A stretch of DNA of 64,000 nucleotides from Plasmopara viticola (lineage: Eukaryota; Oomycota; Peronosporomycetes; Peronosporales; Peronosporaceae). The stretch lies in the NCBI GenBank assembly GCA_001695595.3, contig MBPM02000022.1, positions 682,001-746,000 on the forward strand. The letters run 5' to 3'. The notes under the pieces are model-generated. The model searched no databases. It was not told the origin of the DNA and saw nothing but the letters and a program-made list of their open reading frames with translations. Positions 4,410 through 64,000 of the stretch are shown here, one piece after another (positions within the stretch are counted from its first letter, which is position 1; every line of letters starts with the position of its first letter). Position numbers and translations under genes: made by a program.

Positions 4410-5464
4410 GAATGACTTTCTAGAGCGCTGAAACACTGTACGACCATAGAAACGTCTATTTTATTGCTCTAAAAGTGCATAGACGCAATAGAGCTGCAAC
4501 TAGGCGTAAAAACGCTTTTGAAGCGCTGATTTGTGAGCAGCTACAGATACATTCTTTCTATCATCATAGACGTGCACAAAAGAATTAGAGCCACAACCTA
4601 GCGCACATTCACTCTTTGAAGCGCTGATATGCTGTAAAGCCACAAATAAGCCATTCGTATCGTTCGAGACGTGCGCAGGCGCAATAGCGCCACGACTAAG
4701 CATACAATCAAGCGCCAAGACATTGTATGACCAAGGTTACGTCTTTTCTATCAAGCTTGACGTGTGCAGACGCAAAAGAGTCACAACCAAGCGTATATTG
4801 GCTCGTTTGACGCGCTGAGATGCTATACGACCACAGATTCATCTTTTTAATATAGCAAGACATGCACAGACGTAATAGAGCCACGACCAAGCGTATAAAT
4901 CTTTTCTTAAAGCGTTACTGCCACAGATACGTCCTTTCGATTATCGTAGACGTTTACAGATGCAATAAGGCTACAACTAAGCGCATAATAGATTTAAAGT
5001 GCTCGTATAATGTACGGTCACAGATACGTCCTTTAAATCTACTTGACGTGCACAGACGCAATAGCACCACAACTAAGCTTATAGTAATCCTTTCGAGCCG
5101 CTAAAAGCTGTACGGTCTCAGAGATGTCCTTTTTATAAGTCTAGATGTGCGCAGGCGCAATAGAGCCAAAACTAATCGTGTAAGCACTCTCTGAAACGTT
5201 GACACACCGTAGAATCACAAAGACGTTCTATCTATTATATAAACGTACGCTGTCGCAATAGAGGCACAGCAACGCGTAAAACCTTTTTGAAGCGCTGATA
5301 TGCTGTATGACCACAGATACGTCCATCCTATCATTCTAGACGTGTACACACGCAATAGAGCCGCAACTTTTCGTATGATTTTTCTTTTAGAGCAATGAGA
5401 CGATGTGCAGCTACTATCATTTAGATGTGAATATTCGCCATAGAGCCACAACCAAGCGTATGAT

Positions 5465-5500
5465 CACTCTGTGAAGCGCTTATCATCGCTTCAAAGAGTG
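5465..5500. repeat. Inverted-repeat hairpin at the left inversion breakpoint
   Basis: Arms cactctgtgaagcg (5465-5478) and cgcttcaaagagtg (5487-5500) pair with one mismatch around an 8-nt loop. It is formed by two monomers meeting head to head. Confidence 0.8.
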
Positions 5501-5878
5501 AATATAAGCTAAGTAGTGACTCTATTGCGTCTGTGCATGCTCAATTTGATTAAAAGGACGATTCTATGGTCGTACAGCTTATCCGCGCTTCAGAGAGTAA
5601 TTACATGCTTAGTTGTGGCTTTTTGCGTCTGTGTACGTTCAGAATTATAGAAAATTCGTGTCTGTGGTCGTGCATCATCTCAGCGCGTCAAAAGAAATAT
5701 ATCAAGCTTAGCCGCGGCTCTGTAAGGTCCGTTCATGCCTAGTAGACTAAAAAGGACGTGTATGTGGTCGTACAACATATCATCGCTCCAAACGAGTAAT
5801 AACGCGCTTAGTTTTAACTCTGTCGCGTCTATAATGGTAAAAAGAACGTATCTGTGGTCCTACAACCTCAGCAGCGTG
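5479..5878 (-). repeat. Inverted block of four monomers inside layer 1
   Basis: Within this 400-bp stretch the monomers read in reverse complement: attgcgtctgtgcatg, cttagttgtggct, aaaaggacg and tctgtggtcgtac all appear on the plus strand, while both flanks carry the forward forms. The length is four monomers and both breakpoints fall at the same monomer position (around gcgctgaga), so the repeat phase is kept across the inversion. Confidence 0.85.
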
Positions 5879-6489
5879 TGGCCACGGATGCGTCAATTTG
5901 ACCTATCCAGACATGCACAGACGCAACAGAGAAACAATTAAGCGTATAACCCTATGAAGCACTGAGAGAATGCACGGCCTCATATACGTCTTTTTTCCAT
6001 TCTAGACATGCACAGACGTGATGAAATCAAAGTTAAGCTTTGAAGCACTCTTTTGAAGCGCTGAGATGGTGATTGGCTGCGATAACGTCCTTTCTATCAT
6101 TCAAGACGTGTCAGACGCAATAGAGCCACAGTTAAGCGTATCATAACTCGTTTGAAGCGCTGAAACAATGTACGGTCATACATACGTTCTTTTGATCTCT
6201 ATAGACATGCACAGATGCATTCGGGCTGCACCTAAGCCTATATTGACGGTTCTGGAGCGCTGAGATGATTTACGACCACAGGTACGTCTTTTCAGTCACT
6301 ATCAACGTGCACAGGCGCAAAAGAGCCACAAGTAAGCGTAAAAGCACTATTTAAAGCTGTAGGACAGAAGATACTTCCTATCCATCATTGTAAATGTGCA
6401 CAGACGCACTACAATTGACCTAAGCCTATATAGACTCTTTGAAGAACTGAGATGATGTACTTCCAGAATACGTCCTTTCTGTTATTCTA

Positions 6490-8242
6490 GACGTGCCCAC
6501 ACGCAACAGCGCCGCAATTAATCGTTTGATAACTTTTTTGAGTGCTGAGATAAAGTACGGCCTCATATACGTCATTTCAATATGCATAGACGCGTAAGAG
6601 TCGCAATTTACGGTATAATGACTCTTTTGGAGGGCTGGGACGACGTACGGCCACAAATACATTCTTTCTATTATACTAGACGTACCCGAAACGAAGCGTA
6701 TAATCACTCTTGGAAGAACCGAGACGCTGAGGGACCGAGAAAACGTTCTTTCTATCATTCTAGACGTGCACAGACGCAATAGAGTCAAGACAACACGTTT
6801 AAACACTCTTTTGAAGCGCTGGTATGTGGTGCGACCTCTATATGTCCTTTCTTCTTTTAGACGTGCGAAGACGCAATAGCACCGCAACCAAGCGTACACT
6901 AACTTTTGTGAAGTTCTGAGACAATGTACGGCCACGTATACGTCTTGTCATTTTATCTAGACATGCACAGACGCATTAGAGTCCCAACTTACCTGATAAT
7001 GACTCTTTTGGAGAGCTGCGATGTCGTACGACCACAGATTCATCCTTTCGATTATACTAGACGTGCCCACAATAGAGACAAAAGGAAGCTTAAATAACCC
7101 ATGGAAGCACCGAGACGCTGAAGGACCGAGGGTACGTCCTTTTCTATCACTTTAGACGTTCAAAGACGCAAAAGAGTCACGACAATGTGTATAAACACTT
7201 TTTGGAGTGCTAGTATGTCGACAATCACAGATACATCCGTTCTATCATTTTAGACGTGCATAGACGCAATAGCGCCGCTTTCAAGCTTTTTGACGTTTTG
7301 AAACATTGTACAGCCACATATACGTCTTTTCAATCTATCTAGACTTGTACAGAAATATAAAAGTCGCAACTTAAGCTATAATGACTCTTTTGAGGGCTGG
7401 GATACCGTACGACCACAGATACATCCTTTCTTTCATACTAGACGTGCCCAGGGGCAATAGAGCCAGAACGAAGCAAAAAGTCACTCTTGGAAGCACCTAG
7501 ATAACGTTCCTTCTATTATTCTAGACGTCACGCCAAAACGTATTAATACTCATTTGAAGCGCTGGTATGCGATGTGATGGAAAGGACGGAATAGCGCCGC
7601 AACCGAGCGTACAATAACTCTTTTGAGGTACCGAGAAAACTTACGGCTGCACGTACGTCCTTTTGGTCTATCTAGATCTGCACAGACGCATTAGATCTGC
7701 AACTTACGCTCTAACGGCGTTTTTGGAGGGCTGGGATGACGTAAGACTACAGATGCACCCTTTCTTTCAGACTAAACGTGCCCAGGGGCAAAAGAGCCAA
7801 AACGAAGCGTATAGTCACTCTTGGAAGCACCCGAGACACTGAAGGACCGAGGATACGTCCTTTCTATCATTTTAGACGTGCAAAGACGAAATAAATTCAC
7901 GTTAACACTCTTTGAAAGCTCTGGTATGTAGTGCAACCACACACTAGTCCTTTCTATCATTTTACACGTGCATAGACGCAATAGCGCCGCTTCCAAGCGT
8001 ACAACAACTCTTTTGTAGTTATGAAACAATGTACAGCCAGGAATTCGTCCTTTCAATCCATCTAGAATTGCACAGACGCATTAGATTCGCAACTTAGCCG
8101 ATAATGACTCTTTTGGAGAGCTGGGATGACGTACAACCACAATTACATCCTTTCTCGATCATACTAGACGTGCCCAGGGGCAATAAAGCCAAAAACAAGC
8201 GTATAATCACTCGTGGAAGCACCGAGACGTTAAAGGACCGAG
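6490..8242 (+). repeat. Layer 2: four-monomer higher-order repeat (about 385 bp), nearly five copies
   Basis: Four distinguishable monomer types alternate in fixed order. P has caatagcgccgcaacc and later cggccacgtatacgtc. Q has cgcattagagtcgcaactta and actcttttggagggctggga. R has gtgcccaggggcaatagagc, then cttggaagcaccgagacgct and gaaggaccgag. S has gagtcacgacaa and gcgctggtatgt. The Q landmark ggagggctggga (or a close variant) recurs near 6627, 7009, 7386, 7723 and 8112, spacings of about 377-389 except one shortened unit. The third S copy is truncated (about 7525-7570). The last R copy is cut off at about 8242 by a non-satellite insert. Confidence 0.8.
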
Positions 8243-8578
8243 ATATTCGAAGCCTTCATTGGCGTGCTACATTTGCGCTTGCACCTGAGCTTGTATATGA
8301 GCTTGATATTGATGCTGCTGTTGTATAAGATGCACAAGCAGCTGCTACATGGACATTGTGTCGGGTCCAGCAGTTGCAGACGGAGTTGATGTCGCTGGGG
8401 CCGGTTCTTCCGCTTGACTATTCGCGTTAGCCCCACTTGATGATGCTTGCGCTCGAGTACTTGAGCGTGTTGCAGAGCGTGAGGATCCGGTGTCACTCCT
8501 AACACTCACTCTACTCTGCTGACGAGGTCTAGGGTTTGAGAATAGGCGCTCAGCTGCACGACTTCTTCTTTGAGTCAT
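8243..8578 (-). pseudogene. Decayed gag-like reading frame (N-terminal part)
   Basis: From ATG at 8578 the minus strand gives 77 codons that are Arg/Ser/Ala/Thr-rich and probably disordered (MTQRRSRAAERLF, then SSRSATRSSTRAQASSSG), then TAG at 8347-8345. The same frame continues with a Gln/His-rich segment (QLLVHLIQQQHQYQ), a second TAG at 8269-8267, and HANEGFEYLG before homology is lost. A disordered basic N-terminus followed by a Gln-rich helix is common at the start of LTR-retrotransposon gag proteins, which is why this is suggested. No zinc knuckle, protease or reverse transcriptase follows. Both stops could be CAG-to-TAG changes. It could instead be a fragment of an unrelated Gln-rich host protein. 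Confidence 0.4.
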
Positions 8579-8606
8579 GTCAGCTGGACTTCTCTAGCGC
8601 ACTGTA
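8243..8606 (-). mobile_element. Non-satellite insert between two satellite layers, gag-like retroelement fragment
   Basis: About 364 bp that does not match the monomer. The left edge breaks an R monomer just after aaaggaccgag; satellite resumes near cgagccacatcgaactg. No terminal repeats, poly(A) tail or clear target-site duplication is visible. The satellite families on its two sides are different, so it sits on a layer boundary rather than inside one layer. It carries the broken reading frame described separately. Confidence 0.5.
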
Positions 8607-10072
8607 CTAATCTACCATTCGAGCCACATCGAACTGTACATTCATTCTTTTTAGACACTGAGATACTGTAGAGACAAAATACCGTCCTTCCTATCCTTCT
8701 AGACGGCCACAGATGCAATAGAGCCCCAAATAAGCGTATATTTCTTTTTGAAGCGTTGGGATGCTTAACGGCCCAAGCTCTGTCCTTTCTGTCTTTCTAG
8801 ACGTTCATCGATGCGATAGAGCAACAACTAAGCGTGCATTTCTTTTTTAGAAGCGCTAACATGCTGTACGGTCACATATACGTCCTGGCTATCTTCCTAG
8901 ACACCCACAGATGCAATCGAGCCACAACCTGTTATATATTCATTCTTTCAAGACGCTGAGATGCTGTAAGGACAAAAATCCGTCCTTTTTATCCTTTTAA
9001 ACGTCCACAGATACAAGAAAGCCCCAACTAAGCGTATATTTCTTCTTCAAACGCGCTGGGACGCTGTACGACCCAAGCTCTGTCCTTTCTGTCTTTCTAG
9101 ACGTTCATAGATACGATAGAGCAACCAACAAGCGTGCATTTATATATTAAAAGCGCTTACATGCTGTGCGGCCAAAGATACGGCCCGTCTATCTTTCTAC
9201 ACGCCCACAGATGCATTCGAGCCACAACTTATGTAAATTAATTCTTCCAAGTCGCTGAGATGCTGTACGGACAAAAACCTGTTCTTTTCCTCTTTCTAGG
9301 CATCCACAGATGCGATAGAGCCACAACTAAATACATATATGTTGACTCTCTTGAGGTGATGACAGAGCAACAACTAAACGTGCGTTTCTTCTTTAGAAGT
9401 GCTTACATCCCGTGCGGCCACAGATACGTCTTGTCTATCTTTTTAGACACCCACTTATGCATTCGAGCCACAACTAATTGTATATTTATTCTTTCAAGAC
9501 ACTGAGATGCTTTACGGACATAAACCCGTCCTTTCTATCCTTCTAGACGTTCACAGATGAAAAAGAGCCACATAAAAAGTATGATGACTCTCTAGAAGAA
9601 GTGAAACGCTGTTCGGCCCAAGATCTGTCCTTTCTGTTTTTTAAGACGTCCACAGATGCGACAGAGCTACAACTAAGCGTGCATATACTCTATTATAGCG
9701 TTAACATGCTGTGCGGCCACAGATACGTCTTGTCTATCTTTCTAGACACCCACAGTATGACGACTCCTAAGAAGTGCTGAGATGCTGTACGGCCAGAGAT
9801 CTGTTCTTTCTGTCTTCAAGACGTTCATAGATGCGATAGAGCAACAACTAAGCGTGCATTTATTCTTTAGAAGCGCTGACATGCTGTGCGGCCACAGATA
9901 CGTCTTGTCTATCTTTCTAGACACCCATATATGCAATCGAGCCACAAGTAGCTGTGTATTTAATCTTCCAAGTCGCTAAGATGTTGTAGAAAAAAAAGTC
10001 CTTTCTCTCTTTCTAGGCGTCCACACATGCAATAGAGCCACAATTAAAAGTATGACGACTCTTTTTAAAAGC
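8607..10072 (+). repeat. Layer 3: second three-monomer higher-order repeat (D-E-F, about 298 bp), about five copies
   Basis: Same ancestral monomer, but a subfamily not found elsewhere in the window. D has gacaaaaatccgtcc, then cgtccacagatgcaatagag. E has ggcccaagctctgtcctttc and cgttcatagatgcgatagag, then caacaactaagcgtgcattt. F has gcggccacagatacgtc and acacccacagatgcaatcga. Monomer starts fall near 8700, 8799, 8899, 8997, 9097, 9197 and 9296, i.e. a strict D-E-F order at about 99 bp. Later copies (9.34 and 9.75 kb) are recombined, with parts of E or F missing. It joins layer 4 at about 10,073, where a D monomer runs into a B monomer. Confidence 0.82.
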
Positions 10073-13000
10073 ACGACGTGCAAAGATGCATTACAGACAC
10101 AACAAAGCGTATACTCACCTTCTTTGAGGGCTTAGACGCTGTACGACATGAGCTACGTCCTTTCGATCTATTAAGACGTTCACAGATGCAACAGGGTCAC
10201 AACTAAGCGCAAAATCAATCCATTTAAGCGCTGAGACGCTGAACGTCAGGAGATACTTATTATCTATCCGCTTAGACGTGCAAAGCCGCAATAGGGCCAC
10301 AACTCAGCTTGTAATCACATTTCAAAAGTGCTTAAATGATGTGCGACGACAGATACGACCTTACTATCTCTCAAGACGTGTACAGATGCATTAGAGACAG
10401 ACCAAAGTGTATACATACCCTCTTAAAGCGCTAAGACGTTGTACAACTATAGCTACGTACTTTTTATCTATCTAGACGTTCACAGACGCAATAGGGTCAC
10501 AACTAAGCGCATATTCAATTCATTTAAGCGCTGAGACGCTTAACATCAGCAGATACGTCCTTTCATTCCTCTTAGACGCGCACAGATACAATAGGGACAC
10601 ACTATGACTTTCGTTAAATGCTCAGATGACGTGCGACGACAGAAACGTTCTCTCTATCTCTAAGATGTGCACGGATGCATTAGAGACACAACAAAGCGAA
10701 TATTCACCCTCTTTAAGGGCTGAGACGCTGTTTGACCATAGCTACGTCCTCTCGCTCTATCAAGACGTTTAGAGACGCAACAGGGTCACAACTAAGCGCA
10801 TATCCAATTCATTTGAGCGCTGAGACGCTATATATCAGCAGAAACGTCCTTTCTATCCTCTTAGACGTGCACAGACGCAATAGGGCCACAACGAAGCATC
10901 AAACCACTTTTTTCAAGTGCCCAGATGATGTGGGACGACAAATACGTCCTATCTATCTCTTTAGACGTGCACAGATGCATTAGAGACACATCAAAGTGTA
11001 TACTTACCCTCTTTAAGCGCTGAAACGAGCTACGACCATAGCTACGTTCTTTTGATCTATCTAGACGTTCACAGATGCAATAGGGTCACAAGACAGCGCA
11101 TGTCCAATTCATTTAAGCGCTAAGCCGCTATACGTCAGCAGAAACGTCCTTTCTATCCTCTTTGACGTGCACAGACGCAATAGGGCCACAACGAAGCATG
11201 AAACAGCTTTTCTAAAGTGCCCAGATGATGTGGGACGACAAATACGTCCTTTCTATCTTTTTAGACATGTACAGATGCATTAAAGACACAACAAAGAGTA
11301 TATTCACCTTCTTTAAGCGCTGAGACGCTGTACGACCATAGCTACGTTCTTTCGATCTATCTAGACGTTCACAGACGCAATAGCGTCACATGAAAGCGCA
11401 AATTCAATTCATTTGAGCGTTAAGACGCTGTACGTCAGCAGATACGTCCTTTCTATTCTCTTAGATGGTCACAGACGCAAAAGGGCCACAACTCAGCATC
11501 AAACCACTTTTCTTAAGTGCTTAGATGATGTGGGACGACCGATACGTTCTTTCTATCTCTTATAATGTACAGCTGAATTAGAGACTCAACTAAGAGTATA
11601 TTCACCTTCTTTAAGCGCTGAGACGCTGTACGACGATAGCTACGCTCTTTTGATCTATCTAGACGTTCACAGACGCAACAGGGTCACAAGAAAGCGCAAA
11701 ATCAATTCAACTAAGCGTTAAGACGCTGTACGTCAGCAGATACGTCCTTTCTATCCTCTTAGACGTGCACAGACGCAATAGGGCCACAACGAAGCATGAA
11801 AGCACTTTTCTAAAGTAATCAGATGATGTGGGACGACAGATACGTTCTTTCTATTTCTTGAGACGTGCACAGATGCATTAGAGACACAACAAAGCGTATA
11901 CTTACCCTCTTTACAGGCTTAGACGCTGTTCGACCATACCTACGTTCTTTCGATCTATCTAGACGTTCACACACGAAATAGCGTCAAAACTAAGCGCATA
12001 ATCAATTCATTTGAGCGCTAAGACGCTGTACGTTAGCAGATGCGTCTTTTCTGTCCTCTTAGATGTGAACAGACGAAATAGGGCCACAACTCAGCATCAA
12101 ACCACTTTTCTAAAGTGCTCAGATGATGTGGGACGACAAATACGTCCTTCCTAACTCTTAAGACAAATAAAGATGCATTAGAGACACAACAAAGAGTATA
12201 TTCACCTTCTTTAAGCGCTGAGACGCTGTACGACCATAGCTACGTTCTTTCGATCTATCTAGACGTTCATACACGCAATAACGTCAAAACTAAGCGCAAA
12301 TTCAATTCATTTAAGCGTTAAGACGCTGTTCGTCAGAAAATACGTCCTTTCTATCCTCTTAGACGTGCACAGACGCAAAGGGGCCACAACGAAGCATCAA
12401 GCCACTTTTCTAAAGTGCCCGGATGATGTGAGACGACAAATACGTCCTTTCTATCTATTTAGACACACACAGATGCATTAGAGACACACAAAAGAGTATA
12501 CTCACCCTCATAAGCGCTGAGAAGATGTACGAACATAGCTACGTTCTTTCGATCTATCTAGACGTTCACAGACGCAATAGCGCCAAAACTAAGCGCATAT
12601 TCAATTCATTTGAGCGCTAAGACGCTGTACGTCAGCAGATACCTCTTTTCTGTCCTCTTAGACGTGAACATACGCAATAGGGCCACAACCAAGCATGAAA
12701 CAGCTTTTCTAAGGTGCCCAGATGATGTGGGACGACAAATACGTCCTCTCTATCTCTTTAGACGTGCACAGATGCATTCGAGACACACCAAAGTGTATAC
12801 TTACCCTCTTTAAGTGCTGAGACGATGTACGATCATAGCTACGCTCTTTCGATCTATCTAGACATTCACAGACGCAACAGGGTCACAAGAAAGCGCAAAA
12901 TCAATTCAACTAAGCGTTAAGACGCTGTACGTCAGCAGATACGTCTTTTCTAACCACTTAGACGTGCACAGACGCAATAGGGCCACAACGAAACATGAAA

Positions 13001-14629
13001 CCACTTTTCTTAAGTAATCAGATGATGTGGGACGACAGATACGTCCTTTCTATTTCTTGAGACGTGCACAGATGCATTAGAGACACAACAAAGAGTATAC
13101 TTACCCTCTTTAAAGGCTTAAACGCTGTTCGACCAAACCTACGTTCTTTCGATCTATCTAGACGTTCACACACGAAAAAGCGTCAAAACTAAGCGCATAT
13201 TAAATTCATATAAGCGTTAAGACGCTGTACCTCAGCAGATACGTCTTTTCTATCCTCTTAGACGTGAACAGACGCAATAGGGCCACTCGAAGCATGAAAC
13301 AGCTTTTCTAAAGTGCCCAGATGATGTGGGACGACGAATACGTCCTTCCTATCTCTTCAGACGTGCACAGATGCAATAGAGACACACTAAAGTGTATACT
13401 TACCCTCTTTAAGTGTTGAGACGATAAACGACCATAGCTACGCTCTTTCGATCTATCTAGACATTCACAGACGCAACAGGGTCACAAGGAAGCGCAAAAT
13501 CAATTCATTTAAGCGCTTAGACGCTGTACGTCAGCAGATACGTCTATTCTATCCTCTTAGACGTGCACAGACGCAATAGGGCCACAACGAAGCATAAAAG
13601 CACTTTTCTAAAGTAATCAGATGATGTGGGACGACAGATACGTCCTTTCTATTTCTTGAGACGTGCACAGATGCATTAGAGACACAACAAAGCGTATACT
13701 TACCCTCTTTAAAGGCTTAGACGCTGTTCGACCATACCTACGTTCTTTCGATCTATCTAGACGTTCACACACGAAATAGCGTCAAAACTAAGCGCATATT
13801 CTTTATTTGAGCGCTAAGACGCTGTACGTCAGCAGAAACGTCCTTTCTATACTCTTAGACGTGCACAGACGCAATAGGGTCACAACTAAGCATCAAACCA
13901 CTTTTCTAAAGTGATCAGATGATGTGGGACGACCGATACGTCCTTTCTATCTTTTAAGACGTGCACAGATGCATTAGAGACACACCAAAGAGTATATTCA
14001 CATTCCTTAAGTGCTGAGACGATGTACGACCATAGCTACGTTTGTTCGATCTATCTAGACATTCACAGACGCAATAGGGTCACAAAAAAGCGCAAATTCA
14101 ATTCATTTAAGCTTTAAGACGCTGTACGTCAGCAGATACGTCCTTTCTATCCTCTTAGACGTGCGCAGACGCAATAGGGCCACAACGAAGCATGAAACCA
14201 CTTTTCAAAGTGATCAGATGCTGTAGGACGACAGATACGTCCTTTCTATCTCTCAAGATGTGCACAGATGCATTAAAGACACATTAAAGTGTATACTTAC
14301 CCTTTTAAAGCGCTGAGACGATGTGCGACTATAGCTTCGTTCTTTCGATCTATCTAGACGTTCACAGACGCAATAGCGTCAGAACAAAGCGCATATTCAA
14401 TTCATTTAAGCGCTAAGACGCTGTACGTCAGCGGGTACGTCCTTTCTATCCTCTTAGATGTGCACAGACGCAATAGGACCACAACTAAGCATGTAATCAC
14501 TTTTCTAAAGCGATAAGATGATGTTCGACGACAGATACGTCCTTTCTATCTCTTAAGACGTGCACAGATGCATTAGAGACACACCAAAGTGTATACTCAC
14601 CCTCTTTAAGTGCTGAGACAATGTACAAC

Positions 14630-15245
14630 CATAGCTACGCTCTTTCGATCTATCTAGACATTCACAGACGCAATAGGCTCACAAGAAAACGCATATTCAA
14701 TTCATTTAAGCTTTAAGACGCTGTACGTCAGCAGATACGTCCTTTCTATCCTCTTAGACGTGCACAGACGCAATAGGGCCACAACGAAGCATAAAGGCAC
14801 TTTTCTAAAGTAATCAGATGATGTGGGACGACAGATACGTTCTTTCTATTTCTTGAGACGTGCACAGATGCATTAGAGACACAACAAAGCGTATACTTAC
14901 CCTCTTTACAGGCTTAGACGCTGTTCGACCATACCTACGTTCTTTCGATCTATCTAGACGTTCACACACAAAATAGCGTCAAAACTAAGCGCATATTAAA
15001 TTCATTTAAGCGTTAAGACGCTGTACGTCAGCAGATACGTCCTTTCTATCCTCTTAGACGTGCCAAACGCAATAGGGCCACAACGAAGCATGAAACAGCT
15101 TTTCTAAAGTGCCCAAATGATGTGGGACGAAAAATGCGTCCTTTCTATTTCTTGAGACGTGCACAGATGCAGTGGAGACACACCAAAATGTGTACTCACC
15201 CTCTTTAAGTGCTGAGACAATGTACGACCATAGCTACGTTCTTTC
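14630..15245 (+). repeat. Duplicated segment, copy 1 (partner at 19,720)
   Basis: Shares a private combination of variants with 19720-20332 at an offset of about 5,089 bp: cgcaataggctcacaagaaa, cataaaggcac, the shortened gtgccaaacgcaataggg and gggacgaaaaatgcgtcc. Homology fades just before and after. Confidence 0.75.
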
Positions 15246-15777
15246 GATCTATCTAGACATTCACAGACGCAATAGGTCACAAGAAAACGCGTATTCAATT
15301 CATCTAAGCGTTTAGACGCTGTACGTCAGCAGATACGTCCTTTCTATCCTCTTAGACGTGCACAGATTCAATAGGGCCACAACGAAGCATGAAACCACTT
15401 TTCAAAGTGATCAGATTATGTGGGACGACAGATACGTCCTTTCTATTTCTTGAGACGTGCACAGATGCGTTAGAGACACACCAAAGTGTATATTCACCTT
15501 CTTTAAGCGCTGAGACGCTGTACGACCATAGCTACGTTCTTTTGATCTATCTGGACGTTCACAGACGCAATAGCGCCAAAACTAAGCGCATATTCAATTC
15601 ATTTGAGCGCTAAGACGCTGTACGTCAGCAGATACGTCCTTTCTATGCTCTTAGACGTGCACATACGCAATAGGGCCACGACTAAGATTGAAACAGCTTT
15701 TCTACAGTGCCCAGATGATGTGGGACGACAAAGACGTCCTTCCTATCTCTTCAGACGTGCACAGATGCATTAGAGAC

Positions 15778-15789
15778 ACACCAAAGTGT
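15778..15789. other. Representative dyad in B monomers: acac / gtgt
   Basis: acac-caaa-gtgt. Present in B copies with acaccaaagtgtata, absent from the acaacaaagcgtata form. Short enough to be incidental. Confidence 0.35.
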
Positions 15790-16322: not shown

Positions 16323-16339
16323 GGACGACCGATACGTCC
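16323..16339. other. Representative dyad in A monomers: ggacg / cgtcc
   Basis: Arms ggacg and cgtcc flank a 7-nt loop. The arrangement gggacgac-n-atacgtcc recurs in most A monomers. In layer 3 the D monomers have acgga / tccgt at the same position with a different loop. The B and C monomers lack the full pairing. Confidence 0.6.
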
Positions 16340-52268: not shown

Positions 52269-52960
52269 ATGATGTGGGACGACAAATACGTCCTCTCTAT
52301 CTTCTTAGACGTGCACAGACGCAATAGGGTCACAACTAAGCATGAAACAGCTTTTCTAAAGTGCTGAGATGATGTGGGACGACAAATACGTCCTTTCTAT
52401 CTCTTGAGACTTGCACAGATGCATTATAGATTGTATACTTACCCTCTTTAAGCGCTAAGACGACATACGACCTAAGCTGCGTTCATTCGATCTATCGAGA
52501 CGTTCACAGACGCAATAGGGTCACAACAAAGCGCATATTCAATTCATTTTAGCGTTAAGACGCTGTACGTCAGCAGATACGTCTTTTCTATCCCCTTAGA
52601 CGTGCACAGAAGCAATAGGGCCACAACAAAGCATGAAGCCATTTTTCTATAGTGCTCAGATGACTTGGGACGACCGATACGTCCTTTCTGTCTCTTAAGA
52701 CATGTACAGATGCATTAGAGACACAACAAAGAGTATATTCACCTTCTTTCAGCGCTTCGACGATGTACGACAATAGCTACGTTCTTTCGATCTATCTAGA
52801 CGTTCATACACGCAATAGCGTCAAAACTAAGCGCATATTCAATTAGTTTTAGTGCTAAGACGCTGTACGTCAGCAGATACGTCCTTTCTATCCTCTTAGA
52901 CGTGCACAGACGCAATAGGGCCTTAAAGAAGCATGAAACAGCTTTTTTCAAAGTGCCCAG
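52269..52960 (+). repeat. Extra gamma-like 692-bp unit breaking the alpha-beta-gamma order
   Basis: Two gamma-type units follow one another (atgaagccatttttc at 51,942 and 52,634, 692 bp apart). This one resembles the unit at 47430 (cgcaatagggtcacaactaa in its first A, gacctaagctgcg in its shortened B) more than the canonical gamma. Confidence 0.8.
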
Positions 52961-55033
52961 ATGATGTGGGACGACAAATACGTCCTCTCTATCTTCTTAG
53001 ACGTGCACAGACGCAATAGGGTCACAACAAAGCATGAAACAGCTTTTCTAAAGTGCTTAGATGATGTGGGACGACAAATACGTCCTTTCTATCTCTTGAG
53101 ACTTGCACAGATGCATTATAGATTGTATACTTACCCTCTTTAAGCGCTGAGACGACGTACGACCTTAGCTGCGTTCATTCGATCTATCGAGACGTTCACA
53201 GACGCAATAGGGTCACAACAAAGCGCATATTCAATTCATTTTAGCGTTAAGACGCTGTACGTCAGCAGATACGTCTTTTCTATCCTCTTAGACGTGCACA
53301 GAAGCAATAGGGCCACAACTAAGCATGAAACCATTTTTCTATAGTGCTCAGATGATTTGGGACGACCGATACGTCCTTTCTGTCTCTTAAGACATGTACA
53401 GATGCATTAGAGACACAACAAAGAGTATATTCACCTTCTTTCAGCGCTTCGACGATGTACGACAATAGCTACGTTCTTTCGATCTATCTAGACGTTCATA
53501 CACGCAATAGCGTCAAAAATAAGCGCATATTCAATTAGTTTTAGTGCTAAGACGCTGTACGTCAGCAGATACGTCCTTTCTATCCTCTTAGACGTGCACA
53601 GACGCAACAGAGCCACAAAGAAGCATGAACCAGCTTTTCTAAAGTGCCCAGATGATGTGGGACGACAAATACGTCCTCTCTATCTTCTTAGACGTGCACA
53701 GACGCAATAGGTCCACAACTAAGCATGAAACAGCTTTTCTAAAGTGCCTAGATGATGTGGGACGACAAATACGTCCTTTCTATCTCTTGAGACTTGCACA
53801 GATGCATTATAGATTGTATACTTACCCTCTTTAAGCGCTAAGACGACGTACGACCATAGCTGCGTTCATTCGATCTATCGAGACGATCACAGACGCAATA
53901 GCGTCAAACCTAAGCGCATATTCAATTCATTTTAGCGTTAAGACACTGTACGTCAGCAGAAACGTCTTTTCTATCCTCTTAGACGTGCACAGAAGCAATA
54001 GGGCCACAACTAAGCATGAAACCACTTTTCTATAGTGCTCAGATGATTTGGGACGACCGATACGTCCTTTCTGTCTCTTAAGACATGTACAGATGCATTA
54101 AAAACACAACAAAGAGTATATTCACCTTCTTTCAGCGCTTCGACGATGTACGACAATAGCGACGTTCTTTCGATCTATCTAGACGTTCATACACGCAATA
54201 GCGTCAAAACTAAGCGCATATTCAATTCATTTTATTGCTAAGACGCTGTACGTCAGCAGATACGTCCTTTCTACCCTCTTACACGTGCACAGACGCAACA
54301 GAGCCACAAAGAAACATGAACCAGCTTTTCTAAAGTGCCCAGATGATGTGGGACGACCAATACGTCCTCTCTATCGTCTTAGACGTGCACAGACGCAATA
54401 GGTCCACAACTAAGCATGAAACAGCTTTTCTAAAGTGCTGAGATGATGTGGGACGACAAATACGTCCTTTCTATCTCTTGAGACTTGCACAGATGCATTA
54501 TAGATTGTATACTTACCCTCTTTAAGCGCTAAGACGACGTACGACCATAGCTGCGTTCATTCGATCTATCGAGACATTCACAGACGCAATAGGGTCACAA
54601 CAAAGCGCATATTCAATTCATTTTAGCGTTAAGACGCTGTACGTCAGCAGATACGTCTTTTCTATCCCTTAGACGTGCACAGAAGCAATAGGGCCACAAC
54701 AAAGCATGAAGCCATTTTTCTATAGTGCTCAGATGACTTGGGACGACCGATACGTCCTTTCTGTCTCTTAAGACATGTACAGATGCATTAGAGACACAAC
54801 AAAGAGTATATTCACCTTCTTTCAGCGCTTCGACGATGTACGACAATAGCTACGTTCTTTCGATCTATCTAGACGTTCATACACGCAATAGCGTCAAAAC
54901 TAAGCGCATATTCAATTAGTTTTAGTGCTAAGACGCTGTACGTCAGCAGATACGTCCTTTCTATCCTCTTAGACGTGCACAGACGCAATAGGGCCACAAA
55001 GAAGCATGAAACAGCTTTTTTCAAAGTGCCCAG
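52961..55033 (+). repeat. 2,073-bp unit, copy 3 (alpha-beta-gamma)
   Basis: Same order. Small private changes include gggtcacaacaaagc in the first A and gacgaccaatacgtcctc at 54,352. One C is lost in tatcccttagacg (54,663) relative to the other gamma copies. Confidence 0.87.
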
Positions 55034-57107
55034 ATGATGTGGGACGACAAATACGTCCTCTCTATCTTCTTAGACGTGCAAAGACGCAATAGGGCCACAA
55101 CTAAGCATGAAACAGCTTTTCTAAAGTGCTTAGATGATGTGGGACGACAAATACGTCCTTTCTATCTCTTGAGACTTGCACAGATGCATTATAGATTGTA
55201 TACTTACCCTCTTTAAGCGCTGAGACGACGTACGACCTTAGCTGCGTTCATTCGATCTATCGAGACGTTCACAGACGCAATAGGGTCACAACAAAGCGCA
55301 TATTCAATTCATTTTAGCGTTAAGACGCTGTACGTCAGCAGATACGTCTTTTCTATCCTCTTAGACGTGCACAGAAGCAATAGGGCCACAACTAAGCATG
55401 AAACCATTTTTCTATAGTGCTCAGATGATTTGGGACGACCGATACGTCCTTTCTGTCTCTTAAGACATGTACAGATGCATTAGAGACACAACAAAGAGTA
55501 TATTCACCTTCTTTCAGCGCTTCGACGATGTACGACAATAGCTACGTTCTTTCGATCTATCTAGACGTTCATACACGCAATAGCGTCAAAAATAAGCGCA
55601 TATTCAATTAGTTTTAGTGCTAAGACGCTGTACGTCAGCAGATACGTCCTTTCTATCCTCTTAGACGTGCACAGACGCAATAGGGCCACAAAGAAGCATG
55701 AACCAGCTTTTCGAAAGTGCCTAGATGATGTGGGACGACAAATACGTCCTCTTTATCCTCTTAGACGTGCACAGACGCAATAGGGCCACAACTAAGCATG
55801 AAACAGCTTTTCTAAAGTGCCTAGATGATGTGGGACGACAAATACGTCCTTTCTATCTCTTGAGACTTGCACAGATGCATTATAGATTGTATACTTACCC
55901 TCTTTAAGCGCTAAGACGACGTACGACCATAGCTGCGTTCATTCGATCTATCGAGACGATCACAGACGCAATAGCGTCAAACCTAAGCGCATATTCAATT
56001 CATTTTAGCGTTAAGACACTGTACGTCAGCAGATACGTCTTTTCTATCCTCTTAGACGTGCACAGAAGCAATAGGGCCACAACTAAGCATGAAACCACTT
56101 TTCTATAGTGCTCAGATGATTTGGGACGACCGATACGTCCTTTCTGTCTCTTAAGACATGTACAGATGCATTAGAGACACAACAAAGAGTATATTCACCT
56201 TCTTTCAGCGCTTCGACGATGTACGACAATAGCGACGTTCTTTCGATCTATCTAGACGTTCATACACGCAATAGCGTCAAAACAAAGCGCATATTCAATT
56301 CATTTTATTGCTAAGACGCTGTACGTCAGCAGATACGTCCTTTCTACCCTCTTACACGTGCACAGACGCAACAGAGCCACAAAGAAACATGAACCAGCTT
56401 TTCTAAAGTGCCCAGATGATGTGGGACGACAAATACGTCCTCTCTATCGTCTTAGACGTGCACAGACGCAATAGGTCCACAACTAAGCATGAAACAGCTT
56501 TTCTAAAGTGCTGAGATGATGTGGGACGACAAATACGTCCTTTCTATCTCTTGAGACTTGCACAGATGCATTATAGATTGTATACTTACCCTCTTTAAGC
56601 GCTAAGACGACGTACGACCATAGCTGCGTTCATTCGATCTATCGAGACGTTCACAGACGCAATAGGGTCACAACAAAGCGCATATTCAATTCATTTTAGC
56701 GTTAAGACGCTGTACGTCAGCAGATACGTCTTTTCTATCCCCTTAGACGTGCACAGAAGCAATAGGGCCACAACAAAGCATGAAGCCATTTTTCTATAGT
56801 GCTCAGATGACTTGGGACGACCGATACGTCCTTTCTGTCTCTTAAGACATGTACAGATGCATTAGAGACACAACAAAGAGTATATTCACCTTCTTTCAGC
56901 GCTTCGACGATGTACGACAATAGCTACGTTCTTTCGATCTATCTAGACGTTCATACACGCAATAGCGTCAAAACTAAGCGCATATTCAATTAGTTTTAGT
57001 GCTAAGACGCTGTACGTCAGCAGATACGTCCTTTCTATCCTCTTAGACGTGCACAGACGCAATAGGGCCACAAAGAAGCATGAAACAGCTTTTTTCAAAG
57101 TGCCCAG
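55034..57107 (+). repeat. 2,074-bp unit, copy 4 (alpha-beta-gamma)
   Basis: Same order, preceded and followed by the gggccacaaagaag form of the marker. Private changes include tgcaaagacgcaatagggcc (55,078) and cctctttatcctcttagacg (55,748). Confidence 0.87.
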
Positions 57108-58429
57108 ATGATGTGGGACGACAAATACGTCCTCTCTATCTTCTTAGACGTGCATAGACGCAAAAGGGCCACAACTAAGCATGAAACAGCTTTTCTAAAG
57201 TGCCTAGATGATGTGGGACGACAAATACGTCCTTTCTTTCTCTTGAGACTTGCACAGATGCATTATAGATTGTATACTTACCCTCTTTAAGCGCTAAGAC
57301 GACGTACGACCATAGCTGCGTTCATTCGATCTATCGAGACGTTCACAGACGCAATAGCGTCAAACCTAAGCGCATATTCAATTCATTTTAGCGTTTAGAC
57401 GCTGTACGTCAGCAGATACGTCTTTACTATCCTCTTAGACGTGCACAGAAGCAATAGGGCCACAACTAAGCATGAAACCACTTTTCTATAGTGCTCAGAT
57501 GATTTGGGACGACCGATACGTCCTTTCTGTCTCTTAAGACATGTACAGATGCAATAGAGACACAACAAAGAGTATATTCACCTTCTTTCAGCGCTTCGAC
57601 GATGTACGACAATAGCGACTTTCTTTCGATCTATCTAGACGTTCGTACACGCAATAGCGTCAAAACTAAGCGCATATTCAATTCATTTTATTGCTAAGAC
57701 GCTGTACGTCAGCAGATACGTCCTTTCTACCCTCTTACACGTGCACAGACGCAACAGAGCCACAACGAAGCATGAAACAGCTTTTCTAAAGTGCCCAGAT
57801 GATGTGGGACGACAAATACGTCCTCTCTATCCTCTTAGACGTGCACAGACGCAATAGGTCCACAACTAAGCATGAAACAGCTTTTCTAAAGTGCTGAGAT
57901 GATGTGGGACGACAAATACGTCCTTTCTATCTCTTGAGACTTGCACAGATGCATTATAGATTGTATACTTACCCTCTTTAAGCGCTGAGACGACGTACGA
58001 CCATAGCTGCGTTCATTCGATCTATCGAGACGTTCACAGACGCAATAGGGTCACAACAAAGCGCATATTCAATTCATTTTAGCGCTAAGACACCGTACGT
58101 CAGCAGATACGTCTTTTCTATCCTCTTAGACGTGCACAGAAGCAATAGGGCCACAACTAAGCATGAAACCACTTTTCTATAGTGCTCAGATGATTTGGGA
58201 CGACCGATACGTCCTTTCTATCTCTTAAGACATGTACAGATGCATTAGAGACACAACAAAGAGTATATTCACCTTCTTTCTGCGCTTCGACGATGTACGA
58301 CAATAGCTACGTTCTTTCGATCTATCTAGACGTTCATACACGCAATAGCGTCAAAACTAAGTGCATATTCAATTAGTTTTAGTGCTAAGACGATGTACGT
58401 CAGCAGATAGGTCCTTTCTATCCTCTTAG
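57108..58429 (+). repeat. Terminal partial 2,074-bp unit (alpha then gamma-like; beta missing)
   Basis: An alpha-type unit (57108-57798) passes into a gamma-like unit (57799 on) with features of the mixed block at 44 kb. The series ends where sequence homologous to 22.24 kb begins. Changes such as cgttcgtacacgcaatag (57,642) mark this as the more divergent end. Confidence 0.75.
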
Positions 58430-61400
58430 ACGTGCACAGACGCAATAGGGCCACAACCAAGCATGAAACAGCTGTTCTAAAGTGCCCAGATGATGTGGGA
58501 CGACAAATACGTCCTTTCTATCTCTTTCAACGTGCACAGATGCATTAGAGACACACCAAAGTGTATACTTACCCTCTTCAAGTGCTGAGACGATGTACGA
58601 CCATAGCTACGTTCTTTCGATCTATCTAGACATTCACAGACGCAACAGGGTCACAAGAAAGCGCAAAATCAATTCATTTAAGCGTTAAGACGCTGTACGT
58701 CAGCAGATACGTCTTTTCTAACCACTTAGACGTGCACAGACGCAATAGGGTCACAACTAAGCATCAAACCACTTTTCAAAGTGATCAGATGATGTGGGAC
58801 GACCGATACGTCCTTTCTATCTCTTAAGACGTGCACAGATGCAGTGGAGACACACCAAAATGTGTACTCACCCTCTTTAAGTGCTGAGACAATGTACGAC
58901 CATAGCAACGTTCTTGTTATCTATCTAGACATTCACAGACGCAGTAGGGTCACCAGAAAGCGCATATTTAATGCATTTGAGCGCTAAGACACTGTACGTC
59001 AGAAGATACGTCCTTTCTATCCTCTTAGACGTGCACAGACGCAATAGGGCCACAACGAAGCATGAAACTACTTTTCTAAAGTGCTCAAATAATGTTAGAC
59101 GACGGATACCTCCTTTCTTTTTCTTAAGACGTGCACAGCTGCATTAGAGACACACCAAAGTGTATACTCCCCCTCTTCAAGTGCTGAGACGATGTTCGAC
59201 CATAGCTACGTTCTTTCGATCTATCTAGACATTCACAGACGCAGTAGGGTCACAAGAAAGCGCAAATCCAATTCATTTAAGCGTTAAGACGCTGTACGTC
59301 AGCAGATACGTTTTTTCTATCCTCTTAGACGTGAACAGACGCAATAGGGCCACAACGAAGCATGAAACAGCTTTTCTAAAGTGCCCAGATGTTGTGGGAC
59401 GACAAATACGTCCTTCCTATCTCTTCAGACGTGCACAGATGCAATAGAGACACACTAAAGTGTATACTTACCCTCTTTAAGTGTTGAGACGATAAACGAC
59501 CATAGCTACGCTCTTTCGATCTATCTAGACGTTCACAGACGCAATAGGGTCACAACAAAGCGCATATTCAATTCATTTAAGCGTTAAGACGCTGTACGTC
59601 AGCAGATACGTCCTTTCTATCCTCTTAGACGTGCACAGACGCAATAGGGCCACAACAAAGCATGAAAACACTTTTCTAAAGTGATCAGATGATGTGGGAC
59701 GAAAGATACGTCCTTTCTATCTCTTGAGACGTGCACAGATGCATTAGAGACACAACAAAGCGTATACTTACCCTCTTTAAAGGCTTAGACGCTGTTCGAC
59801 CATACCTACGTTCTTTCGATCTATCTAGACGTTCACACACGAAATAGCGTCGAAACTAAGCGCATATTCAATTTATTTGAGCGCTAAGACGCTGTACGTC
59901 AGCAGAAACGTCCTTTCTATACTCTTAGACGTGCACAGACGCAATAGGGTCACAACTAAGCATCAAACCACTTTTCTAAAGTGATCAGATGATGTGGGAC
60001 GACCGATACGTCCTCTCTATCTCTTAAGACGTGCCAAACGCAATAGGGCCACAACGAAGCATGAAACCACTTTTCAAAGTGATCAGATGATGTGAGACGA
60101 CAGATACGTCCTTTCTATCTCTTAAGACGTGCACAGATGCAGTGGAGACACACCAAAATGTGTACTCACCCTCTTTAAGTGCTGAGACAATGTACGACCA
60201 TAGCTACGTTCTTTCAATCTATCTAGACATTCACAGACGCAATAGGGTCACAAGAAAACGCATATTATATTCATTTAAGCGTTTAGACGCTGTACGTCAG
60301 CAGATACGTCCTTTCTATCCTCTTAGACGTGCACAGACGCAATAGGGTCATAACTAAGCTTCAAACCACTTTTCTAAAGTGCTCAGACGATGTGGAACGA
60401 CCGATACGTCCTTTCTATCTCTTAAGACGTGCACAGATGCATTAGAGACACACCAAAGTGTATATTCACCTTCTTTAAGCGCTGAGACGATGTACGACCA
60501 TAGCTACGTTCGTTCGATCTATCTAGACATTCACAGACGCAATAGGGTCACAAGAAAGCGCAAATTCAATTCATTTAAGCGTTAAGACGCTGTACGTCAG
60601 CAGATACGTCCTTTCTATCCTCTTAGACGTGCACAGACGCAATAGGGCCACAACGAAGCATGAAACCACTTTTTAAAGTGATCAGATGATGTGGGACGAC
60701 CGATACGTCCTTTCTATCTCTTAAGACGTGCACAGATGCAGTGGAGACACACCAAAATGTGTAATCACCCTCTTTAAGCGCTGAGACGACGTACGACCTT
60801 AGCTGCGTTCATTCGATCTATCGAGACGTTCACAGACGCAATAGGGTCACAACAAAGCGCATATTCAATTCATTTTAGCGTTAAGACGCTGTACGTCAGC
60901 AGATACGTCCTTTCTATTCTCTTAGACGTGCACAGACGCAATAGGTCCACAACGAAGCATGAAACCACTTTTCTATAGTGCTCAGATGATATGGGACGAC
61001 AAATACGTCCTTTCTAGCTCTTAAGACATGTACAGATGCATTAGAGACACAACAAAGAGTATATTCACCTTCTTTAAGCGCTGAGACGCTGTACGATCAT
61101 AGCTACGCTCTTTCGATCTATCTAGACATTCACAGACGCAATAGGGTCACAACTAAGCATCAAACCACTTTTCTAAATTGCTCAGACGATGTGGGACGAC
61201 CAATACGTCCTTTCTATCTCTTAAGACGTGCACAGATGCAGTGGAGACACACCAAAATGTGTACTATCCATTTTTAAGTGCTGAGACAATGTACAACCAT
61301 AGCTACGTTCTTTTGATCTATCTAGACGTTCACAGACGCAATAGCGTCAAAACTAAGCGCATATTCAATTCATTTGAGCGCTAAGACACTGTACGTCAGC

Positions 61401-64000
61401 AGATACGTCCTTTCTATCCTCTTAGATGGTCACAGATGCAGTAGGGCCACAACGAAGCATGAAACTACTTTTCTAAAGTGCTCAAATAATGTTAGACGAC
61501 AGATACCTCCTTTCTATCTCTTAAGACGTGCACAGCTGCATTAGAGACACACCAAAGTGTATACTCACCCTCTTTAAGCACTGAGACGATGTACGACCAT
61601 AGCTACGTTCTTTCGATCTATCTAGACATTCACAGACGCAGTAGGGTCCCAAAAAATCGCATATTCAATTAATTTCAGCGCTAAGACGCTGTACGTCAGC
61701 AGATACGTCCTTTCTATCCTCTTAGACGTGCACAGACGCAATAGGGTCATAACTAAGCATCAAACCACTTTTCTAAAGTGCTCAGACGATGTGGAACGAC
61801 CGATACGTCCTTTCTATCTCTTAAGACGTGCACAGATGCATTAGAGACACACCAAAGTGTATATTCACCTTCTTTAAGCGCTGAGACGATGTACGACCAT
61901 AGCTACGTTCGTTCGATCTATCTAGACATTCACAGACGCAATAGGGTCACAAGAAAGCGCAAATTCAATTCATTTAAGCGTTAAGACGCTGTACGTCAGC
62001 AGATACGTCCTTTCTATCCTCTTAGACGTGCACAGACGCAATAGGGCCACAACGAAGCATGAAACCACTTTTTAAAGTGATCAGATGATGTGGGACGACC
62101 GATACGTCCTTTCTATCTCTTAAGACGTGCACAGATGCAGTGGAGACACACCAAAATGTGTAATCACCCTCTTTAAGCGCTGAGACGACGTACGACCTTA
62201 GCTGCGTTTATTCGATCTATCGAGACGTTCACAGACGCAATAGGGTCACAACAAAGCGCATATTCAATTCATTTTAGCGTTAAGACGCTGTACGTCAGCA
62301 GATACGTCCTTTCTATTCTCTTAGACGTGCACAGACGCAATAGGTCCACAACGAAGCATGAAACCACTTTTCTATAGTGCTCAGATGATATGGGACGACA
62401 AATACGTCCTTTCTAGCTCTTAAGACATGTACAGATGCATTAGAGACACAACAAAGAGTATGTTCACCTTCTTTAAGCGCTGAGACGCTGTACGATCATA
62501 GCTACGCTCTTTCGATCTATCTAGACATTCACAGACGCAATAGGGTCACAACTAAGCATCAAACCACTTTTCTAAATTGCTCAGACGATGTGGGACGACC
62601 AATACGTCCTTTCTATCTCTTAAGACGTGCACAGATGCAGTGGAGACACACCAAAATGTGTACTATCCATTTTTAAGTGCTGAGACAATGTACAACCATA
62701 GCTACGTTCTTTTGATCTATCTAGACGTTCACAGACGCAATAGCGTCAAAACTAAGCGCATATTCAATTCATTTGAGCGCTAAGACACTGTACGTCAGCA
62801 GATACGTCCTTTCTATCCTCTTAGATGGTCACAGATGCAGTAGGGCCACAACGAAGCATGAAACTACTTTTCTAAAGTGCTCAAATAATGTTAGACGACA
62901 GATACCTCCTTTCTATCTCTTAAGACGTGCACAGCTGCATTAGAGACACACCAAAGTGTATACTCACCCTCTTTAAGCACTGAGACGATGTACGACCATA
63001 GCTACGTTCTTTCGATCTATCTAGACATTCACAGACGCAGTAGGGTCCCAAAAAATCGCATATTCAATTAATTTCAGCGCTAAGACGCTGTACGTCAGCA
63101 GATACGTCCCTTCTATCCTCTTAGACGTGCACAGATGCAATAGGGTCACAACAAAGCACCAAACCATTTTTTCAAAGTGCTCAGATGATGTGGGACGACA
63201 AAATCGTCCTTTCTATCTCTTAAGACATGTACAGATGCATTAGAGACACAACAAAGAGTATATTAACCTTCTTTAAGCGCTGAGACGCTGTATGACAATA
63301 GCTACGTTCTTTCGATCTATCTAGACGTTCACACACGCAATAGCGTCAAAACAAAGCGCATATTCCATTCATTTAAGGGTTAAGACGCTGTACGTCAGCA
63401 GATACGTCCTTTCTATCCTCTTAGACGTGCACAGACGCAATAGGGCCACAACGAAGCATTAAACAGCTTTTCTAAAGTGCCCAGATGATGTGGTACGAAA
63501 AATACGTCCTTTCTATCTCTTGAGACGTGCACAGATGCATTAGAGACACACCAAAGTGTATACTCACCCTCTTTAAGCGCTGAGGCATGCTACGACCATA
63601 GCTACGTTTTTTCGATCTATGTAGACATTCACAGACGCAATAGGGTCACAAGAAAACGCATATTCAATTCATTTGAGCGTTAAGACGCTGTACGTCAGCA
63701 GATACGTCCTTTCTATCCTCTTAGACGTGCACAGATGCAATAGGGCCACAACGAAGCATGAAACCACTTTTCAAAGTGATCAGATGATGTGGGACGACAG
63801 ATACGTCCTTTCTATTTCTTGAGACGTGCACAGATGCGTTAGAGACACAACAAAGCGTATACTTACCCTCTTTAAAGGCTTAGACGCTGTTCGACCATAC
63901 CTACGTTCTTTCGATCTATCTAGACGTTCACACACGCAATAGGGTCACAAGAAAGCGCATATTCAATTCATTAAGGCGTTAAGACGCTGTATGTCAGCAG
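58430..64000 (+). repeat. Layer 4f: second copy of the 22.2-28.9 kb segment
   Basis: Collinear with 22.24-28.9 kb but at stepwise offsets: +36,189 up to about 59,040; +35,590 from about 59,040 (599 bp fewer); +33,695 after 61,128 (one 1,896-bp unit fewer); +35,094 near 63,929 (one extra 1,399-bp unit). The end of the window matches the start of the 3,895-bp unit at 28,835, so the right-hand neighbour is probably another such unit. Confidence 0.87.
60342..63139 (+). repeat. Tandem pair of 1,399-bp units
   Basis: The marker atagggtcataactaagc starts at 60342 and 61741. The two units are near-identical, with the same A-to-A and hybrid monomer junctions. About 14 monomers each. The second ends at about 63,139, where sequence matching 28.03 kb takes over. 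The homologous stretch in the left copy (26,651 to about 28,030) is single. Confidence 0.85.

Follow-up and report, generated by a model that had tools for sequence, protein, structure and literature searches.

The centromeres of oomycetes have been described as clusters of retroelements. In Phytophthora sojae, CENP-A chromatin is reported to be enriched for clustered Copia elements (CoLT; PMC7082073); similar CoLT clusters are reported in Bremia lactucae (PMC7082073, PMC11540230, PMC9667082), and centromeres mapped by Hi-C are said to coincide with CoLT clusters in Peronospora effusa, except on chromosomes 1 and 15 (PMC11540230), and in Phytophthora agathidicida (PMC9667082). In Plasmopara viticola, for which 17 chromosomes are given, putative centromeres were placed on 13 of them by CoLT and synteny (PMC11979753). 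Here, we describe a 64,000-nucleotide stretch of P. viticola DNA (the window; positions 682,001–746,000 of contig MBPM02000022.1, hereafter C22, 937,216 bases long), in which arm genes abut a satellite array with a monomer of about 100 bp. The genome searched comprised 92,937,831 bases in 358 contigs, and the assembly of Dussert et al. (2019) is given as 92.94 Mb in 358 scaffolds (359 in the abstract; PMC6660063). We consider it probable that the window is the gene-side edge of a pericentromeric array of higher-order repeats (HORs), lying beside centromere cores of the Copia (CoLT-like) type.

By using a profile hidden Markov model (HMM) of the monomer built from the window, we identified 600 monomers between window positions 4413 and 64000, covering 93.5% of 4410–64000 and all on the plus strand, except five (5479–5869). 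The claim of an earlier note on this DNA, that one monomer family runs throughout these 59.6 kb, thus holds apart from a single non-satellite gap (8240–8616). Tandem Repeats Finder (TRF), run on the window, returned one array of period 100/200 over 10075–63986 and shorter arrays at 6595–7450 (381 bp × 2.2), 8640–9330 (300 bp), and 9578–9927 (175 bp). From 10 kb onward, self-identity at a lag of 100 bases is 0.51–0.61, and the GC (guanine plus cytosine) fraction of the monomers is 0.42–0.44 in 2-kb windows. Beyond the window, all 15 pieces sampled at C22 746,001–936,000 (150 of 190 kb) were satellite on the plus strand, 94–95% covered, so that the array on C22, as sampled, measures about 250 kb, with arm genes on one side and the contig end inside it or at most 1.2 kb from it. 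A contiguous 194 kb beginning with the window holds 1910 monomer matches; 1490 of their spacings measure 100 bp and 228 measure 99 bp, only five matches are inverted, and one gap of 376 bp is foreign. C22 therefore carries a long head-to-tail array of related monomers. Neither Rfam matches nor tRNA genes were found in the window, whose array contains a single reading frame of at least 100 amino acids (169 amino acids). That the array consists of genes for small RNAs or of other coding units, or is an assembly artefact, is accordingly hardly credible, even though tandem tRNA arrays are reported in oomycetes (PMC9584435) and repeats can be misassembled in contigs from noisy long reads: an array of tRNA or other RNA genes is rejected by the missing Rfam and tRNA matches, and an artefact would be expected to produce neither an orderly edge of diverged monomers nor inversions, nor variants that differ across many contigs, although the exact array length may be wrong. 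The idea that the monomer adopts a special DNA fold was likewise rejected (z 0.46).

The monomers are organized into higher-order units. In three stretches between 10 and 30 kb of the window, identity at a lag of three monomers was 0.84–0.86 versus 0.62–0.67 at lags 1, 2, 4, and 5, meaning that a multi-monomer unit is more alike from copy to copy than neighboring monomers are, as in an HOR satellite, and confirming the trimer HOR announced in the earlier note. The first ~5.6 kb of the array has a different composition, made of diverged monomers, five inverted monomers, and a foreign insert. The outermost monomers (4410..5478, plus strand; first HMM match at 4413) show mutual identities of 0.60–0.63 at lags 1–7; they are followed by the five monomers matched by the HMM on the minus strand (5479..5869) and by further diverged plus-strand monomers (5870..8240), in which TRF and a lag scan of 6420–8240 detect a weak unit of ~381 bp, or about four monomers. 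Because identity among the 16 monomers at 6.4–8.2 kb is 0.65 at lag 4, against 0.65 at lag 6 and 0.69 at lag 10, the tetramer HOR proposed earlier is present, but weak and short. Next comes the insert (8241..8615, minus strand; gap between HMM matches at 8240 and 8616), the only sizeable non-satellite stretch in the array of the window, with a short reading frame whose translation contains stops. By its appearance, this minus-strand frame may be the start of a retroelement gag. A transition on the plus strand (8616..10074) holds the 3-monomer (300 bp) and 175-bp repeats reported by TRF and has a lag-3 identity of 0.77. Inward of it, lag scans delimit, all on the plus strand, a zone of trimer HOR (300 bp; 10075..46769) with larger duplications of, for example, 2.99 kb, a zone of heptamer HOR (691 bp; 47169..57638), and a second trimer zone (58029..64000) with larger units of 1.4 and 1.7 kb, from which the array goes on to at least C22 position 936,000. 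Between 686 and 876 kb of C22, trimer zones occupy most of the array and 7-monomer zones lie at 729.2–739.6 kb, inside the window, and at 768.4–776.0 kb, beyond it; larger duplications within the C22 array span, for example, 30 or 39 monomers. The layer sequence given in the earlier note is thus right in outline and had overlooked the heptamer between the trimer zones.

Homogenization also changes with depth. The mean best local identity of sampled monomers was 0.69 at 4.4–6.4 kb (n = 4), 0.74 at 6.4–8.3 kb (n = 4), 0.77 at 8.6–10.1 kb (n = 3), 0.93 at 10.1–14 kb (n = 10), and 0.98–0.99 from there to 64 kb (n = 125), which bears out a diverged monomeric edge beside the genes, rising from 0.69 to 0.98 over the first 10–20 kb. 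Similarly, lag-3 identity was 0.58 in the first 40 monomers and 0.77–0.99 in ten bins at C22 706–876 kb, then 0.85 at 896–906 kb and 0.94 at 926–936 kb. A diverged monomeric flank with younger HORs inward, as in alpha satellite, was thus found in general trend, with few edge monomers sampled; the expected inward increase is not monotonic deeper in the array. No exact match to the CENP-B box was found on either strand of 189,591 bp of array.

The satellite is widespread in the genome. A 29-bp satellite word gave 2029 matches with at most one mismatch on both strands (reversed control, 0), and arrays, defined by at least four adjoining monomers in the HMM search (27 contigs) or at least ten pattern matches (C21, C50, C121, C128), were found on at least 31 contigs, in both orientations, some of them short (C10, C20, C48). 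As far as contigs show, the array is thus not restricted to a single chromosome, which the earlier note had named as a possible refutation. Two very specific monomer words had just four genome matches and one. Large arrays lie at or near the tips of C21 (888.7 to at least 935.9 of 936.9 kb), C28 (~803.5 to at least 829.8 of 831.0 kb), C49 (satellite matches from base 144 to 253 kb), C86, C100, C135 (both tips), and C240. The satellite helps to explain the breaks between contigs and may serve as a practical marker of unassembled pericentromeres. Single switches from plus to minus among the listed monomer matches suggest large inversions inside the arrays of C128 (813–113478) and C240 (152–50381), and satellite matches of mixed orientation occur inside the long contigs C20 (41735–47363) and C8 (377142–425201).

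Arrays also differ from one another. Samples of C135, C49, and C28 were monomeric (0.85, 0.76, and 0.73, respectively) and had no trimer HOR, the organization found on C22, and among the four best contigs listed for each probe, C22 reached no more than 84% identity, except with the tip of C100 (up to 99%). Over its final 400 bp, C100 is 96–99% identical to the C22 HOR of 861–897 kb in 24 listed rows, with 98–99% in the best rows (highest 99.3%), compared with 87% for the next-best contig; other close pairs of arrays are C240–C267 (93.8%) and C131–C92 (92.5%). Given this shared HOR, C22 and C100 are likely to be either parts of a single array or the two haplotypes of it. On C100, satellite was present in probes from 170 kb to the end (244 kb), and the monomers switch from minus to plus between ~180 and 196 kb.

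Its monomer length recalls the ~98-bp satellite of the brown alga Ectocarpus, which is described as subtelomeric (PMC11541908), and C22 ends without a telomere being seen past the array, so that a subtelomeric satellite had to be considered. Telomere-repeat runs were present on at least 27 contigs, whereas about 34 ends are expected with 17 chromosomes and some of the runs may be haplotype copies; beyond C48, the comparison with these runs rests on sparser satellite words. Among the matches listed, none of the 27 known telomere contigs had a large array beside its telomere repeat. The only one of them with a listed large array, C28, has its telomere repeat at ~4.5 kb and the array ~800 kb away, at the opposite end, and isolated satellite matches on C4, C7, C41, and C117 are at least 123 kb from a telomere repeat. 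Satellite was also absent from all seven probed non-telomeric tips of telomere contigs. Moreover, the array shows no excess of telomere motifs (CCCTAAA 0, expected 20; TTTAGGG 3, expected 7), unlike the Ectocarpus satellite, which has TTAGGG in each monomer. As far as contigs show, the satellite is thus not confined to chromosome ends, another possible refutation named in the earlier note, and a subtelomeric satellite is disfavored to the point of being very improbable. The telomere runs themselves show a recurrent spacing: they are 4.3–4.8 kb apart at C4:2261114–2265669, C6:1845225–1850173, and C195:25121–29869, and lie ~4.5–5 kb from the starts of C15, C28, and C339. This suggests an element of ~4.5 kb between or beyond the runs, for which telomere-targeted retroelements are one idea.

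Copia elements, on the other hand, are clustered in this genome and repeatedly share contigs with the satellite. In a search for the Copia reverse transcriptase domain RVT_2, most of the best 150 of 2394 candidates fell into clusters, and the best 150 of 1860 gag candidates identified many of the same contigs, plus smaller ones, as well as a 1376-amino-acid family scattered singly. A 33-bp long terminal repeat (LTR) word from the Copia cluster of C50 has 321 exact copies genome-wide. The 100 listed copies, which cover C1–C53 in full and part of C54, lie on eight contigs, C6 (3), C8 (21), C18 (11), C24 (8), C40 (1), C50 (32), C51 (9), and C54 (at least 15), and 99 of them are in groups of 3 to 32. 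Altogether, Copia clusters were found on about 20 contigs. Some have a tandem organization of their own. At C8:4044–29361, RVT_2 matches repeat four times with a period of ~7.04 kb, forming a tandem array of paired Copia elements in a centromere-type cluster; Copia pieces follow each other at a spacing of 4416–4417 bp at C85:102982–116965 and C6:579256–584410; and gag pieces recur eight times, about every 1.6 kb, at C54:295222–307081, which points to tandem repeats derived from retroelements inside the clusters.

For probing of contig tips, we selected 19 contigs with Copia clusters by visual inspection of the RVT_2 matches; C105 (two Copia matches, satellite at 72 kb), C6, C18, C51, and C148 were left out. 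Satellite was present at seven of 30 probed tips (16 starts and 14 ends), namely the starts of C67, C119, and C167 and the ends of C54, C85, C104, and C120. C50, with pattern matches to 605.7 of 608.3 kb, is the eighth satellite tip (8/31), so that eight of the 19 contigs have one, to which C8 adds an interior block at 377–425 kb. Of 20 control tips, by comparison, a single one carried satellite: C61, among 13 other contig starts, the remainder being the seven non-telomeric tips of telomere contigs. C61 was kept as a control despite two gag copies of the clustered Copia type some 400 kb away, and the control start of C74 had one lone monomer.

The order of these elements, established from probes 10–25 kb apart and listed matches, recurs from contig to contig. 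Copia at 295–465 kb of C54 is followed by neither element at 485–525 kb and by satellite at 545 kb and at the end (566 kb). Likewise, Copia reaches 225 kb on C85 and 184 kb on C104, with neither element at 245–265 and 196 kb, respectively, and satellite at 285 kb and the end (300 kb) of the former and at 208 kb and the end (220 kb) of the latter. On C120, Copia occupies 30–71 kb, neither element was seen at 80 kb, and satellite is present at 100–140 kb and at the end (170 kb), whereas on C50, Copia extends to 592.4 kb and satellite begins at 592.7 kb. The order is mirrored on C67 (satellite 1–55 kb, neither at 75, Copia 110–194), C119 (satellite 1–20 kb, neither at 30, Copia from 50), and C167 (satellite 1–12 kb, Copia from 21). 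This repeated succession of Copia cluster, short other DNA, satellite, and contig tip is more telling than the tip statistic. It also argues against a heterochromatic knob satellite without centromeric role, found here and there in the arms and near centromeres by chance, as does the fact that many large arrays end contigs rather than sit between genes. Small interior arrays (C10, C20, C48, and others) and a tip contrast that is only borderline speak for such knobs, which on balance we regard as unlikely.

Several observations weigh against a pericentromeric array beside CoLT-like cores. The tip contrast (8/31 vs. 1/20) is suggestive but not significant (Fisher one-sided p = 0.058, or 0.15 with C74 counted). 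Satellite was absent from the probed tips of C63 and C91 (both), C24 (end), C62 (start), and C8 (start), and from those of six small Copia contigs: C168, C188, C213, C242, and C252 (both), and C186 (start). C24, C62, C63, and C91 are Copia-cluster contigs of at least 100 kb, without satellite where probed. Small satellite pieces are dispersed within arms, with one to three monomers on C2, C3, and C7. C22 itself has no Copia among the 150 best RVT_2 or gag matches and no copy of the LTR word. Pointing the other way, C100, which shares the HOR of C22, has one listed Copia copy, an RVT_2 match at 3.7 kb with a bit score equal to those of clustered copies on C63, C104, and C242, and eight contigs (C50, C54, C67, C85, C104, C119, C120, and C167) carry a Copia cluster together with satellite. 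As monomers are on the plus strand at both right ends, of C22 and of C100, these contigs could be two haplotypes, or else flanks with an inversion between them. The clustered Copia elements are called CoLT-like by kind of element and clustering. Finally, the CoLTs of the downy mildew Peronosclerospora sorghi are reported to occur on every chromosome but to show no enrichment around the centromeres mapped by Hi-C, the assembly being incomplete at its centromeres (PMC9997571). Other Copia clusters are without a listed satellite array (C18:10945–193284, C24:813495–869306, C51:141–260342, and C6:578237–587103); these may be centromeres without satellite, or their satellite may lie beyond the contig.

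The earlier note had proposed that the window is a centromere edge and, given the retroelement centromeres of relatives, one of a different type. The first part stands for the neighborhood, in that the satellite is on many contigs, was not seen as a large array beside telomere repeats, and borders Copia clusters. The second is not demonstrated. The genome also has Copia (CoLT-like) clusters, so that a satellite flanking a retroelement core is the simpler reading. Alternatively, the satellite itself may carry CENP-A on some or all chromosomes, in a hybrid of HOR satellite and centromeric retroelements such as those of many plants. The array of ~250 kb, with homogenized and largely array-specific HORs, is similar in size to the CENP-A regions reported in P. 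sojae (211–356 kb; PMC7082073) and satellite is contiguous with Copia clusters; besides, no reliable centromere placement is reported for four of the 17 P. viticola chromosomes (PMC11979753), nor CoLT enrichment for P. effusa chromosomes 1 and 15 (PMC11540230). Against this, CENP-A in P. sojae and Hi-C in P. effusa and P. agathidicida are reported to place the centromere at CoLT clusters, Copia clusters exist on about 20 contigs here, and no CENP-B box was found in 190 kb of array. We therefore regard CENP-A on the satellite as possible, though doubtful. The same reserve applies to a composite centromere, in which the kinetochore domain would take in chromosome-specific HOR arrays, hundreds of kilobases long and joined to a CoLT core, a tentative idea.

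Under the favored reading of a pericentromeric flank, the ~100-bp satellite family would form long, largely array-specific arrays between the arm genes and a CoLT-like Copia cluster. The arrays may grow and homogenize inside through unequal crossing-over and gene conversion; such exchange would be ineffective at the border with unique DNA, so that older, diverged monomers could persist there along with an insertion and a small inversion. By analogy with relatives, CENP-A would occupy the Copia cluster as the centromere core, and the adjoining satellite block would function as pericentromeric heterochromatin. We infer that it recombines little and that the C22 array adjoins such a cluster.

The genes that flank the array are ordinary. 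A reading frame for the TFIIH helicase XPB/ERCC3 (window 3..1904, minus strand; Pfam PF16203, E = 2.4e-45, and PF13625, E = 3.4e-36) runs on past the window start and belongs to the last gene-rich DNA ahead of the satellite block, and a frame of the endonuclease/exonuclease/phosphatase family (1968..3083, plus strand; PF03372, E = 1.3e-8) is the recognized gene closest to the satellite. EF-Ts and spermidine synthase lie within 10 kb further out from the window, and the profile HMM found no satellite monomers in the 20 kb ahead of it.

The satellite most likely belongs to the flanks of centromeres, and no report of such a layout in oomycetes was found. The words satellite, tandem, centromer, and telomer do not occur in the main text of Dussert et al. 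(2019; PMC6660063), nor satellite or tandem repeat in that of the linkage paper (PMC11979753), and no description of this satellite was found in the literature by titles and beginnings of abstracts, with subscription papers and supplements outside the scope. If one lineage did add HOR satellites, oomycetes would lend themselves to studying how retroelement centromeres are invaded or replaced by satellites, in a setting for the evolution of satellite centromeres far from animals and plants. A composite centromere, if true, would be an independent invention in stramenopiles of the satellite centromere of primates and plants, replacing or extending the retroelement-only type of relatives. The mating-type locus of P. 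viticola is reported to overlap a putative centromere, and about 5% of progeny to have karyotypic anomalies (PMC11979753); centromere structure thus bears on recombination and aneuploidy in a major crop pathogen.

Compared with known systems, the P. viticola layout combines several features. Like the CoLT-type centromeres of P. sojae, P. agathidicida, and P. effusa, in which a single Copia family clusters where genes are sparse, it has Copia clusters on about 20 contigs, sharing the contig with a satellite tip on eight; the CoLT type differs in being described as retroelement-rich, without mention in those descriptions of a satellite array of this kind alongside. PpSat1 and PpSat2 of Phytophthora parasitica are likewise oomycete satellites, PpSat1 being a proposed centromeric candidate with mutated repeats towards the array ends (PMC7290008). 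However, they measure 337 bp with 36.8% GC and 143 bp with 58.8% GC, as against 100 bp and 43% here, and their most divergent repeats are still 91% and 89% identical to the consensus, whereas neighboring monomers in P. viticola are about 65% alike and form HORs. An association with telomeric repeats, reported for PpSat1 (PMC7290008), was not seen for the P. viticola satellite; the two are set apart by these descriptions. AeSat of Aphanomyces euteiches shares tandem repeats of 100–500 bp in up to more than 3000 copies, with HOR structure and chromosomal place not part of its description as far as available (PMC8780586). The Ectocarpus satellite belongs to another stramenopile and has a similar monomer length, but it is described as subtelomeric with telomere motifs in the monomer (PMC11541908), two features that were looked for and not found in P. 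viticola.

The arrays of primate alpha satellite have a diverged monomeric edge, homogenized HORs inside, and HORs specific to the array. The P. viticola satellite belongs to an unrelated organism and differs by its 100-bp monomer, by the lack of a detected CENP-B box, and by the retroelement clusters alongside, but it has the same diverged monomeric edge, HORs inside, and array-specific HORs.

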